Source: Spirochaetales bacterium
GTDB taxonomy: Bacteria > Spirochaetota > Spirochaetia > SZUA-6 > JAFGRV01
Reading direction: 5' to 3'
Length of the DNA: 64,000 nt
Assembly (NCBI GenBank): GCA_016935735.1
Contig: JAFGQK010000042.1
Span: forward strand, 1-64,000
In this document: positions 13,394 to 51,663 of the stretch, one piece after another
Layout of the letters: each line of letters begins with the position of its first letter
Numbering within the stretch: position 1 is the stretch's first letter
The notes under the pieces: model-generated
What the model was told of the DNA's origin: nothing
Seen by the model: only the letters and a program-made list of their open reading frames with translations
Databases searched by the model: none
Program-made: the position numbers and the translations under genes

Positions 13394-13426
13394 ACTATCT
13401 CCTGTTACAGAATACTTTTATTCAAT

Positions 13427-13446
13427 TTATCCACAACTTATCCACA
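13427..13446. promoter_or_regulatory. DnaA box pair 1
   Basis: Two perfect TTATCCACA boxes at 13427-13435 and 13438-13446 are in the same orientation, with starts 11 bp apart (about one helical turn). They sit 34 bp upstream of the dnaA start. Confidence 0.88.
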
Positions 13447-13622
13447 AAAATAAATATTATAAAACTGCTCTATTTACCATTTCTTCGCCAGTTATACATA
13501 TATGCATAAAATCAAATAAAATAATTCTTTATGGTATAATTAAATATATGACATATTATTAAAAATTATACACTTCATAATATTATGCGGATAATTTCTT
13601 TGTAAATAAATAAATCTAGAAT

Positions 13623-13642
13623 TTATCCACAAGTTATCCACA
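13623..13642. promoter_or_regulatory. DnaA box pair 2
   Basis: Two perfect TTATCCACA boxes at 13623-13631 and 13634-13642 repeat the 11-bp phasing and orientation of pair 1, 196 bp away. Confidence 0.88.
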
Positions 13643-13754
13643 GAACCTACGTAACAAAAGTATATAACTTTTACGTTATTTTATATGAATGATTTATTTA
13701 ATGCAAGCCAAATTTATGAATTTTTCGTATTGTTTAATCAACTAAGTTGAAAAG

Positions 13755-13842
13755 CACCTTATAAATTGCTATCGTGCCTCAACGAATGTCGAGGAGTACT
13801 CAACATTCGTTAAGTCCCGATTGTTGTTTAAATAAGGTGGTG
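13755..13842 (+). repeat. Structured repeat element, copy A
   Basis: This is the longest copy of a four-member sequence family. The outer stem CACCTTAT (13755-13762) pairs with ATAAGGTG (13832-13839). Inside are hairpin CCTCAAC/GTCGAGG (one mismatch) and hairpin ACTCAAC/GTTAAGT (one mismatch). Aligned with copy B it is nearly identical along its full length. It lies inside the origin spacer, between the DnaA boxes and gyrB. I see no promoter directly before it. Confidence 0.75.
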
Positions 13843-13910
13843 TTTTAAAAAGATTTTTTTGTAATAGAAATAGGATAGTTTATATCATTTTTTCCTTTAT
13901 ATATTAGCCA

Positions 13911-28800: not shown

Positions 28801-29052
28801 TGCTGCATTTCCCAGGGGCTGGTGCCAGTGGAGGATATTGGTAACAGATGGCAGATCCGGCTTCATAAGGTCTTCCGGGATGTAGAGGTCTTTTTCGGTG
28901 TACTGTTCATTTGCAGCCGGAGGGTTGATGATATTCTGTAGAGAAGGACCGATCCCTGATGATCCTGTTACTTTTTTTATATAATAAACAGAATTCTTTA
29001 ATGAGTAAAACCGGGGTTTTGGAGTATCTGTTTGTTGATGAATATTCAACAT
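25876..29052 (-). CDS. GH57 alpha-amylase / 4-alpha-glucanotransferase-like enzyme
   Basis: This very long enzyme (1058 residues from the first ATG; GH57 glucanotransferases are usually near 650) would act on alpha-glucans in the cytoplasm. It has LHWHQPLGN near residue 74, WLVERIWEPGY with the probable nucleophile Glu209, AIDDHLF, WAGDGEKPTNLW with probable acid/base Asp401, and GSWHGVFGGRYLANLRHDM in the middle. The C-terminal part fits the DUF1926-type beta domain. The start is uncertain: ATG 29052 lies inside repeat copy C and has only GGGG before it, while ATG 28866 (MKPDLPSVTN) has GGAAG five bases upstream and begins directly at the catalytic domain. Confidence 0.85.
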   Translation of the reverse strand: MLNIHQQTDTPKPRFYSLKNSVYYIKKVTGSSGIGPSLQNIINPPAANEQYTEKDLYIPEDLMKPDLPSVTNILHWHQPLGNAAKGIYMGVKDLMDILYEYYLMQLEVWETFIKNNPHAGYIETVHLTGTLITWMAQEHPDWLKRFTHLVRGKVTGNPDEKPHFELFVSPYFESLASTLPIEEAVRQTQISIDIMNFFGMKPSGYWLVERIWEPGYFALFTKELRKLGINKAAIDDHLFYKMRKQEIKASGFTFTAFSEKDLRGYFILNNDLKETDPFYILPANRDYRQARPYWLSEIPRKGGRFIPYWLQGYLKGSISKERVTRIFKNNWHMMDYFFIKHSLLSFEDETLDYVIFKDDFTSLIKKVDDIDEKAKKKLTAMWEETQKDRYSPHQSLVWAGDGEKPTNLWRYIGDKKQHKEDLASARQWLYGELEAKLNNYYANYLPTGQLIEKTTCCGYITLPFGAYKEMTWWAHTTGNQVRLNELITKIETLKTQLLHYHAIAEKVDDEVISDEEILLYEKLSNTEIKKYKILLNALKKRKRLTHCRKRYIPGYFLTKKEEEELKILEKGIPWKNFWLKYSESYKYHRLWVFLYNLTIKHIDNEQLKELILNLLGRATVNCGSWHGVFGGRYLANLRHDMMWGIAAAVSVYLYALEEKGFFTKGNALMYRFDLMGALTDELREAAIKIKDEKKKRIRDIIIITCQMMAVISLKNGGTLLDWIYFDTGNPLSAINTINLIKEPYHDDAKKMVSWFKKKLDQYRQFVAIANNYLEDYQIYNNLDTDIITFTEFRDNITSLKTIYDTILKKDPTNLKVILLYQELIDKPAFAGTKTRTKPVQNLNVIEALKDYDTRLPVNQIARLRDMKTGKEIGSFDTDDFEMETMKDEDLWYEIIIKAKTRTITLKKQIRVNKKTPLIIFIYTITTTHREQNIEIEIENNTNLSCLQDNITWIEINGKIKKISGITEESSVQSFTVVNRTDNIIQTIEIDPEQNKLSIQPRYSVSQGLRLFETTLQYIRYSTFFPLCIRQDKPGRIMISHSLDSQTRKNEEDEWIIKQ

Positions 29053-29087
29053 AAGTTGAACCCCAATTGTATATAAATTAAGGTGGT
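29034..29087 (+). repeat. Structured repeat element, copy C (3' part)
   Basis: GTTGATGAATATTCAAC, then hairpin TTCAAC/GTTGAA with loop ATAA, then CCCCAATTGT and AAGGTGGT match the 3' half of copy B. The outer-stem 5' arm and second hairpin are missing. It overlaps the annotated start of the GH57 gene, in antisense direction. Confidence 0.65.
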
Positions 29088-29253
29088 AACCGTCATATTG
29101 TTCGTATGCTATATGTTATGGTATTCTTTATAGTGAGTCAAGAGACACTGTACAGGCTTTTTTCTTTAAGCAGGGCATTGTTTTTTATAAGTATTAATCC
29201 TTGACAAAAAAAATTACTTTTATTATCACTAAAGGTATTTTTAAGGAGCTGGC
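29088..29253. other. Divergent spacer with possible flavoprotein promoter
   Basis: After repeat C this spacer holds TTGACA (29201-29206) followed 17 bp later by TATCAC, or 14 bp later by TATTAT. Either could be the promoter of the flavoprotein gene. A 32-codon open frame from 29108 has no ribosome site and is not called. Confidence 0.4.
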
Positions 29254-35232: not shown

Positions 35233-35262
35233 TTGACTTTTCAAATTAATTGTAGTTATATT
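35233..35262 (+). promoter_or_regulatory. Promoter of the metallolyase gene
   Basis: TTGACT (35233-35238), an 18-bp spacer and TATATT (35257-35262) are well matched. Transcription would begin near 35268, at the first arm of repeat copy B. Confidence 0.65.
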
Positions 35263-35264
35263 GT

Positions 35265-35346
35265 ACCTTATAAACCATCGTGCCTCAACAAATGTTGAGG
35301 AGTATTCAATATTGTTGAACCCCAATTGTTGTTAAAATAAGGTGGT
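35265..35346 (+). repeat. Structured repeat element, copy B (probable 5' leader)
   Basis: The outer stem ACCTTAT (35265-35271) pairs with ATAAGGT (35337-35343). A perfect hairpin CCTCAAC/GTTGAGG (35283-35300, loop AAAT) and a hairpin TTCAA/TTGAA (35305-35319) lie inside. It starts just after the promoter -10 box and ends 54 bp before the metallolyase ATG. The outer stem would bury the AAGGTGG sequence. Confidence 0.75.
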
Positions 35347-35399
35347 CTGCAATAAACCTGTATGGAGGAGGCTTTTCTGATTACAGAAAGGATCATAGA

Positions 35400-49862: not shown

Positions 49863-51410
49863 TTATTTATTACACCAGCGTAAAGAGCGGTAAATCACAT
49901 CCTTCCAGAGTGTATAGTTCTTTTGTCTTGTTTCCTCATCCAACCTGGGCTTGAATATCTCTCCATGCATTATCATTGCTTTTATCTCATCTTCGGACTC
50001 CCAGTATCCTGATGCAAGACCTGCCATAAATGCTGCCCCAAGTGCAGTAGGCTCCGGATGTGGATAATATTCCACATCAATTCCCAGAATATCACTTAAA
50101 AACTGGCAGATAAACCTGTTCTTTGATACACCGCCATCCAGTTTCATTTTTTTTATTTTAATTTTCGTATCCCTTACAATCCCGTCAACAATATCTTTTA
50201 TTCGATAGCAAATTCCTTCCAGGGCTGCCCGGATAATATGTGCCTTTGTTGTATTCAGGTTTATGCCGAAAATATTTCCTTTTGCTGATGCATCCCAGTA
50301 GGGAAAGGTGAGTCCTGTGGTAAAAGCAGGCAGGAAAAAAACTCCATTTGTTGAATCGATGCTAAAAGCAAGGGTTTCAGTATCCCTGGCATTTTTAAAA
50401 AGGCTAAGTTCTTTCTGTATCCAGTCGATAACACTCCCGGTATTCTGGGATTGACCTTCGAGTAGATAGGTTGTTTGATTGTCTACACGCCAGGCAACCA
50501 GGGGGTAAAGTCTTCGTCTTGATGCAAAAGGCCTGACTCCTGTATTCAGATCGATAAATGAACCGGTCCCGTTTGTACACTTCATTTCCCCGTTTTCAAA
50601 ACAACATTGTCCATAGAGTGATGATTGTTGATCTGCTATTACTGCACGGATAGGGATTTCGCCCCCTCCAAATAATGATGTACTCCCAAAATCCCCCCGG
50701 GTCTCCCTGATTTCCGGGAGAATCTGACCGGGAATGCTGAAAATACCCTGTACAATACTATTCCATTTAAGGGTAAAGGGATCCAGAATACCGGAGGAAG
50801 ATGCATTTGAATAATCTGTTGCATGAACCTTCCCTCCTGTCAAATTCCATAATATCCATGAATCAATTGTTCCCCAGCATACTGAAGTATCCGGGGTATG
50901 GGCAAGACGTTTTAGTTCCGGGTTACTATGAAATAAATATCCTGTTCTTGATGATGACTGAACAGTATCAAATTTTAAGATTGAAAGAACCAGAAGTTTG
51001 GGAGAAGGAATAACACCACGAAAAATCCTGGCAAAAGTGCGTACCAATTTAAGCCATAAAAGGTTTGTTTTCTTTTCTGCATAATGGGCGCATCGTTTGT
51101 CCTGCCACGTTATGATATTTGTCAATTTTTTTCCTGTTTTTTTATCCCACATCAGGAATGAGCTTCGCTGTGTTGTAATTCCCAGGGAAACGATATTTTC
51201 CGATTTGAGTCTTTTTAATTTCATAATCTTTAATAATACGTTCCTGCTCATTGTCCAGAGTTCATCCGGATCCTGCTCCATATATCCTTCCTGCTCAATG
51301 ATATAATGTGGCTGTTCTTTCGTTTCCCCAATAATTACTCCCTTTTTATCAAAAATAAATGCCTTTATATTGGTTGTTCCGACATCCAGGATAAGTATAT
51401 ATTTTTTCAT
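49863..51410 (-). CDS. FGGY-family carbohydrate kinase (glycerol-kinase-like)
   Basis: This 515-residue actin-fold kinase phosphorylates a polyol or sugar with ATP. It has phosphate-1 ILDVGTTNIKAFIF, ITTQRSSFLMWDKKTGK, adenosine motif region TNGTGSFIDLNTG and the second FGGY region LDGGVSKNRFICQFLSD. The pattern is nearest glycerol kinase, but the substrate-binding residues are not all typical. An insert near residues 115-150 (RTFARIFRGVIPSPKLLVL) is unusual. Its Shine-Dalgarno is AAGGTGG of repeat copy D. Confidence 0.85.
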   Translation of the reverse strand: MKKYILILDVGTTNIKAFIFDKKGVIIGETKEQPHYIIEQEGYMEQDPDELWTMSRNVLLKIMKLKRLKSENIVSLGITTQRSSFLMWDKKTGKKLTNIITWQDKRCAHYAEKKTNLLWLKLVRTFARIFRGVIPSPKLLVLSILKFDTVQSSSRTGYLFHSNPELKRLAHTPDTSVCWGTIDSWILWNLTGGKVHATDYSNASSSGILDPFTLKWNSIVQGIFSIPGQILPEIRETRGDFGSTSLFGGGEIPIRAVIADQQSSLYGQCCFENGEMKCTNGTGSFIDLNTGVRPFASRRRLYPLVAWRVDNQTTYLLEGQSQNTGSVIDWIQKELSLFKNARDTETLAFSIDSTNGVFFLPAFTTGLTFPYWDASAKGNIFGINLNTTKAHIIRAALEGICYRIKDIVDGIVRDTKIKIKKMKLDGGVSKNRFICQFLSDILGIDVEYYPHPEPTALGAAFMAGLASGYWESEDEIKAMIMHGEIFKPRLDEETRQKNYTLWKDVIYRSLRWCNK

Positions 51411-51415
51411 TGAAT

Positions 51416-51457
51416 ACCACCTTGTTTAAAATTATAATTAGGGTTCAAAGTTGAACA
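51416..51457 (-). repeat. Structured repeat element, copy D (3' part)
   Basis: On the minus strand: hairpin GTTCAA/TTGAAC, then CCCTAATTATAATTTTAAAC and AAGGTGGT. It matches the 3' half of copies A-C. Here AAGGTGG lies five to six bases before the kinase ATG and must be its ribosome-binding site. A TATAAT sits about 15 bp upstream. Confidence 0.7.
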
Positions 51458-51663
51458 CTTCTCTCTTTATTAATTATATTGTATTTCAAATAGCGAATAA
51501 AACCAGTATTTTTTTTGATTGGGATATATTATCTTTATGCAGACTTAGAACCTTGAAGAATATTCTGGTATGATTTTTAGGGAAAAGCTGGTGATGAAGG
51601 TTGAGCGGTAATACTGCTTGAAAATAGAGCTATTATGAACTACACTATAATAAGGAGTTATAA
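51458..51663. other. Divergent spacer between kinase and RsbW-like gene
   Basis: No gene is seen. It contains TATAAT on the minus strand (51474-51479) before repeat D, and TATGAT (51569-51574) on the plus strand, which could be a -10 box for the RsbW-like gene with only a weak -35. Confidence 0.4.

Follow-up and report, generated by a model that had tools for sequence, protein, structure and literature searches.

A hairpin module of about 42 nucleotides that probably behaves as a very small mobile repeat in an uncultured Spirochaetales bacterium

We analysed a 64,000-nucleotide (nt) stretch of DNA (hereafter the window) together with the genome from which it comes, that of an uncultured member of the Spirochaetales whose GyrB is 69–74% identical to its best named relatives. 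Both contain copies of a short hairpin module, which is probably a very small, non-autonomous mobile element: one module would move at a time, enter a [C/G]^T target and depend on a single-strand enzyme acting in trans. The unit is unusually small for a mobile one, and orthologous genes record its gain in one piece. The module also illustrates how a repeat can enter a gene while keeping its reading frame, or a ribosome-binding site while bringing a replacement along, a point relevant to the persistence of these repeats in compact genomes.

Anatomy, copy number and host range

The module is 39–46 nt long (type X usually exactly 42 nt, type Y mostly 43–45 nt) and consists, in order, of T, a 7-bp hairpin, the tail C[C/A]C[A/G]AT[T/A]GTA, an A/T-rich stretch and AAGGT with two further bases. 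These last two bases define the subtypes, i.e. AC in type X and GG in type Y. The hairpin has a loop of 2–4 nt and a stem that is mostly N-Y-TCAAC ... GTTGA-R-N, and the conserved tail of 20–24 nt, ending in AAGGT, lies on one side of it.

A sequence-only reading of the window had described four copies of a structured repeat (A–D), and all four were found where it put them. Copies A and B each comprise two inverted modules (type X on the minus strand, then type Y on the plus strand), while C and D comprise one module each. In copy A, the 42-nt type X module (13754–13795, minus strand; covariance model match 13749–13799, 54.2 bits) is made up of T, the hairpin CCTCGAC/GTTGAGG and a tail ending in AAGGTGC, and the 44-nt type Y module (13797–13840, plus strand; match 13793–13845, 63.6 bits) has the hairpin ACTCAAC/GTTAAGT and the 3' end AAGGTGG. 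Copy B contains a shortened, 39-nt type X module (35263–35301, minus strand; match 35258–35305, 46.8 bits) and a 43-nt type Y module (35303–35345, plus strand; match 35299–35350, 59.9 bits). Lone type Y modules form copy C (29043–29086, plus strand; match 29039–29091, 54.9 bits) and copy D (51417–51457, minus strand; match 51412–51461, 55.9 bits). The pairing proposed earlier is real for each small hairpin, but what looked like a long outer stem in A and B (ACCTTAT/ATAAGGT) is a by-product of two inverted units, made up of their conserved ATAAGGT ends, and no separate feature. Several TTATCCACA-like boxes adjoin copy A at 13400–13660, upstream of gyrB, possibly in a replication-origin region.

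Stem changes that keep pairing, suspected from the comparison of A with B, were borne out across the modules: both partners are altered in 134 cells, where shuffles give 58 ± 6, and the signal is destroyed when the pairing partner is slid. In the congeneric genome G001, where the tail is similar, at least six of the seven stem positions show compensatory types (e.g. CTTCAGC/GCTGAAG, GCTCAAT/ATTGAGC, CTTGAAC/GTTCAAG and GTTTAAC/GTTAACC). No Rfam family matched the window at gathering score, and around copy A there were only sub-threshold matches (E 0.4–0.5).

Genome searches show that the repeat exceeds chance. A 33-base pattern of the type Y 3' half (up to three mismatches) gave 28 matches against 0 for the reversed control, a strict gapped pattern covering most of the module gave 61 against 0, and the covariance model gave at least 148 among 150 scored candidates; BLAST with copy B as query returned 54 pieces. 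Within 97 surveyed genome regions plus the window (0.78 Mb), cmsearch identified 172 modules (E ≤ 0.01) and nhmmer 222 (E ≤ 0.1). Because these regions contain, by our count, about three quarters of the strict-pattern matches, we estimate that the source genome holds roughly 220–290 modules. They occur in both orientations, intergenically and within coding regions; by a crude open reading frame (ORF) call, 148 of 221 (67%) lie wholly between ORFs, though ORFs make up 87% of the surveyed sequence.

The modules form 141 clusters: 50 lone Y units, 39 lone X units, 14 plain X-Y pairs arranged head to head and, for the remainder, tandem or mixed arrays with at most four units and a tandem period near 42. 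Units of one array are often near-identical to each other and unlike those of other arrays, one array contains a perfect duplication of an 84-nt dimer, and several contigs terminate near module arrays. Among 41 genomes of the source organism and its relatives, matches are confined to the source genome (G000), G001 and G002: the congener G001 has at least 51 modules and a same-family genome has two, while no module was found in the 38 other relatives. The strict pattern had zero matches in genome-contig and viral-contig databases, from which the source genome is excluded.

Insertion as a unit and the target site

Modules within long genes add residues in frame, and empty orthologous sites, the missing-site alleles that an insertion leads one to look for, are present for four host proteins. 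At the module, the G001 and G002 orthologues of a VWA-domain protein are each exactly 14 residues shorter, a Castor/Pollux-like channel has a gap of exactly 14 residues in G001, a protein read as apolipoprotein N-acyltransferase-like (Lnt-like) has a 14-residue gap in G001 and G002, and a fourth protein has a gap of 15 aligned columns in the same two genomes. These sites were compared at the protein level; the DNA of G000 and G001 differs by ∼30%, so the insertions may be old. Since the gaps match one unit, the protein alignments indicate that one 42-nt unit is gained whole, without net target duplication.

Inside ORFs, module lengths are multiples of three in 16/16 type X and 5/5 type Y copies, compared with 61/96 and 16/71 between genes, a statistic that is partly circular because frame-breaking copies would not score as inside an open frame. 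Genic copies are seen to be tolerated when they measure 42 or 45 nt and leave the frame open. Three large genes read as polyketide synthases carry in-frame type X modules at an equivalent position, just 3' of a ketosynthase-like NAHxxLEE motif (L130 near 4002, L131 near 13029 and L152 near 4002); this may reflect either a single insertion that was duplicated along with the domain or targeting of this position more than once.

The ends of the unit are sharply defined. Of 76 single modules, 74 have T immediately before the hairpin, and in 57 of the 76 the base preceding that T equals the unit's last base, mainly as C-C and G-G, with a tail base following the same split; ends and targets change together between the subtypes. 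The outer flanks of 91 same-direction clusters yield the consensus TTGANNA[CG]^TNTTCAA, which is weak (0.2–0.5 bits per position) and whose two halves tend not to co-occur. As read from these flanks, the insertion point lies between [C/G] and T, beside a TTGA or TTCAA half-site. The first bases of the unit, TNYTCAA, resemble the right half of this target.

No target-site duplication was found at the modules. One had been suspected because the last base of the unit agrees with the one preceding the insertion; we rejected this given that mismatched cases are common (e.g. TC before and AC at the end) and that the agreement tracks subtype. An empty target folded as a hairpin was also rejected, as sites with one half tend to lack the other. 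A base-pairing guide code between tail base and target fits most G000 copies; several G001 variants fail it, and we do not claim it. At five loci (L122, L141, L200, L135 and L201) the module is directly preceded by the common sequence GGCTTTTT[A/G]GACAGCCCCA, which may be the terminus of a different mobile element. At four G001 loci (L103, L108, L321 and L323) the modules are embedded in a larger repeat that contains TGTCATTTCCTTTTAC, has TGACAATT...AATTGTCA-like arms and resembles a MITE carrying the module.

We propose that the moving unit would be one module, i.e. T, the 7-bp hairpin and the tail ending in AAGGT[AC or GG]. Each insertion would rebuild the target at its own start, with the base before the cut tending to equal the unit's last base. 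Such rebuilding would explain both the tandem arrays with a period of ∼42 and the head-to-head pairs, and new units could enter in front of old ones to form arrays. Movement would be effected in trans by a Y1 HUH-type single-strand enzyme; we infer this because the module is like IS200/IS605 and REP elements in its conserved hairpin, its invariable cut before T and its missing duplication, and the agreement of the ends with the target also fits Y1 HUH single-strand transposition. The first guess of the sequence-only reading, a small mobile REP- or MITE-like repeat, is supported by the dispersed copies, the filled and empty sites, the tandem arrays and the inverted pairs.

Modules could instead be substrates of site-specific recombination, with a tyrosine or other double-strand recombinase binding the TTGA...TCAA arms and exchanging strands. 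An imperfect palindromic consensus at the cut, the absent target duplication and the resemblance of the unit's own start to the target are all compatible with this. However, the target halves tend not to co-occur, the conserved, compensating short hairpin (loop of 2–4 nt) suits a folded single strand better, and no recombinase gene was found beside modules, which leaves this explanation unlikely. We consider it quite improbable that the inverted pair, REPIN- or MITE-like as in A and B, is the replicating unit and that single modules are its decayed halves. Pseudomonas REP doublets have been proposed as the unit there, with singlets as remnants (PMC3116915), and the 14 plain X-Y head-to-head pairs and other mixed-orientation clusters would match such a history; yet singles outnumber pairs by about six to one (89 versus 14), their stems and ends are intact, tandem arrays consist of one-direction single units, and the clean empty sites in four genes correspond to the gain of one 42-nt unit.

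Type Y modules at ribosome-binding sites

Extragenic type Y modules lie within 60 nt of a start codon in 36 of 71 cases, compared with 17% of random intergenic sites. In 13 of 76 type Y modules the start codon of a long ORF follows 6–16 nt past AAGGT, and several of these 13 directly follow AAGGAG, ATAGGAG, GAGAGAAG or GAAGAG. Copy D, for example, comes directly after GAGAGAAG, and its AAGGTGG end is 6 nt upstream of the ATG of an FGGY-family kinase gene (49863–51410, minus strand). In these cases the module comes between the native Shine-Dalgarno sequence and the start codon, and the AAGGTGG at the module's end occupies that position. This position suggests that AAGGTGG works as a replacement Shine-Dalgarno sequence in translation; insertions into ribosome-binding sites would then be tolerated because AAGGTGG can stand in, and single copies may have been recruited as ribosome-binding sites.

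A conserved hairpin that often lies just 5' of start codons could also point to a cis-regulatory RNA leader, the second guess of the sequence-only reading, or to a structured non-coding RNA family. This is very improbable: Rfam gave no match, many copies lie in coding regions and in both orientations, the modules form tandem arrays and are nearly restricted to one genus, and the orthologues of the genes downstream of B (in G001, G002 and G003), C (in G001) and A (in G002) have no module upstream.

Candidate mobilising enzymes and comparison with known repeat classes

No gene was found to recur next to modules. Four Y1 genes were found in the source genome, three of them RAYT-like and the fourth longer, and no module lies in their surveyed flanks. 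Repeats with a GGGACGGAG core, by contrast, lie beside RAYT-like genes in G000, G001 and G002: arrays of them adjoin RAYT-like Y1 genes of about 165–175 aa at L059, L060 and L062 (G000:C75, C271 and C80), at L294 and L299 in G001 and at L293 and L297 in G002. The GGGACGGAG repeat may be the true partner of these enzymes. RAYT genes also occur in module-free relatives. We rejected RAYT as the cognate mobiliser, both because none of the four Y1 genes is near modules and a different repeat lies beside the RAYT-like ones, and because the RAYT genes of module-free relatives leave no co-occurrence of RAYT with modules.

It is possible, though doubtful, that the modules represent near genus-restricted, single-hairpin units of ∼42 nt with a self-stacking start and a Shine-Dalgarno-mimicking Y end, with neither a dedicated transposase nor a known tag, and moved by a single-strand enzyme that may be undescribed. 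The clear boundaries, readable target and natural subtypes make the mobiliser of REP-like elements that lack their own RAYT testable.

Our module resembles the REP, BIME and REPIN elements of the GTAG superfamily in its short hairpin, its hundreds of mainly intergenic copies, its occurrence as singles, tandem clusters and inverted pairs, and the proposal of movement in trans (PMC8266576, PMC3116915). The E. coli TnpAREP cleaves REPs at a CT on either side (PMC8266576). Unlike GTAG REPs, the module has no GTAG, the bases bordering its hairpin being AC-T or AG-T at one end and C[C/A]C[A/G] at the opposite end; it also has a conserved AAGGT tail on one side, single units appear to move, and the repeat that flanks this genome's RAYT genes is a different one. 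A REP in the general sense is a short palindrome in more than 100 copies that are mainly extragenic, and this describes the module (at least 148 model matches; 148 of 221 between ORFs). A REPIN spreads as an inverted doublet, whereas here there are 89 singles versus 14 plain pairs, and insertions are of single units.

CGTC-tagged REPs, including Rickettsia palindromic elements (RPE), are likewise short palindromes found in frame within coding regions; no dedicated transposase is known for them, and they are reported from Spirochaetes too (PMC3733652). The four hairpin-adjacent bases on the unit's minus strand are different, i.e. CGTG in type X and mostly YGGG/TGGA otherwise, and neither a conserved tail of this kind nor arrays with a period near 42 appear in the description of CGTC REPs and RPE consulted here (PMC3733652).

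IS200/IS605 elements use folded single strands, for which guide pairing has been described (PMC8266576), and small dispersed repeats (SDR) are named from cyanobacteria (PMC3116915). Classical MITEs differ from the module, in that its single units have no terminal inverted repeat and the insertion equals the unit length, with no net duplication. Integron attC sites and CRISPR repeats were dropped on anatomy, the modules being dispersed over many contigs with no spacers and no cassettes. The cyanobacterial SDR are also very small dispersed mobile repeats, but size, sequence and hosts differ, and they serve as a lead only. Like the ends of IS200/IS605, the module has a subterminal hairpin, a fixed cut, insertion beside a short fixed sequence and no target duplication; unlike them, it has one hairpin per element, no internal gene, one base between cut and hairpin, and no demonstrated guide. 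Because both superfamily tags and the REPIN doublet fail to describe it, we place the module among short palindromic mobile repeats as REP-type in behaviour and outside the GTAG, CGTC and REPIN families.
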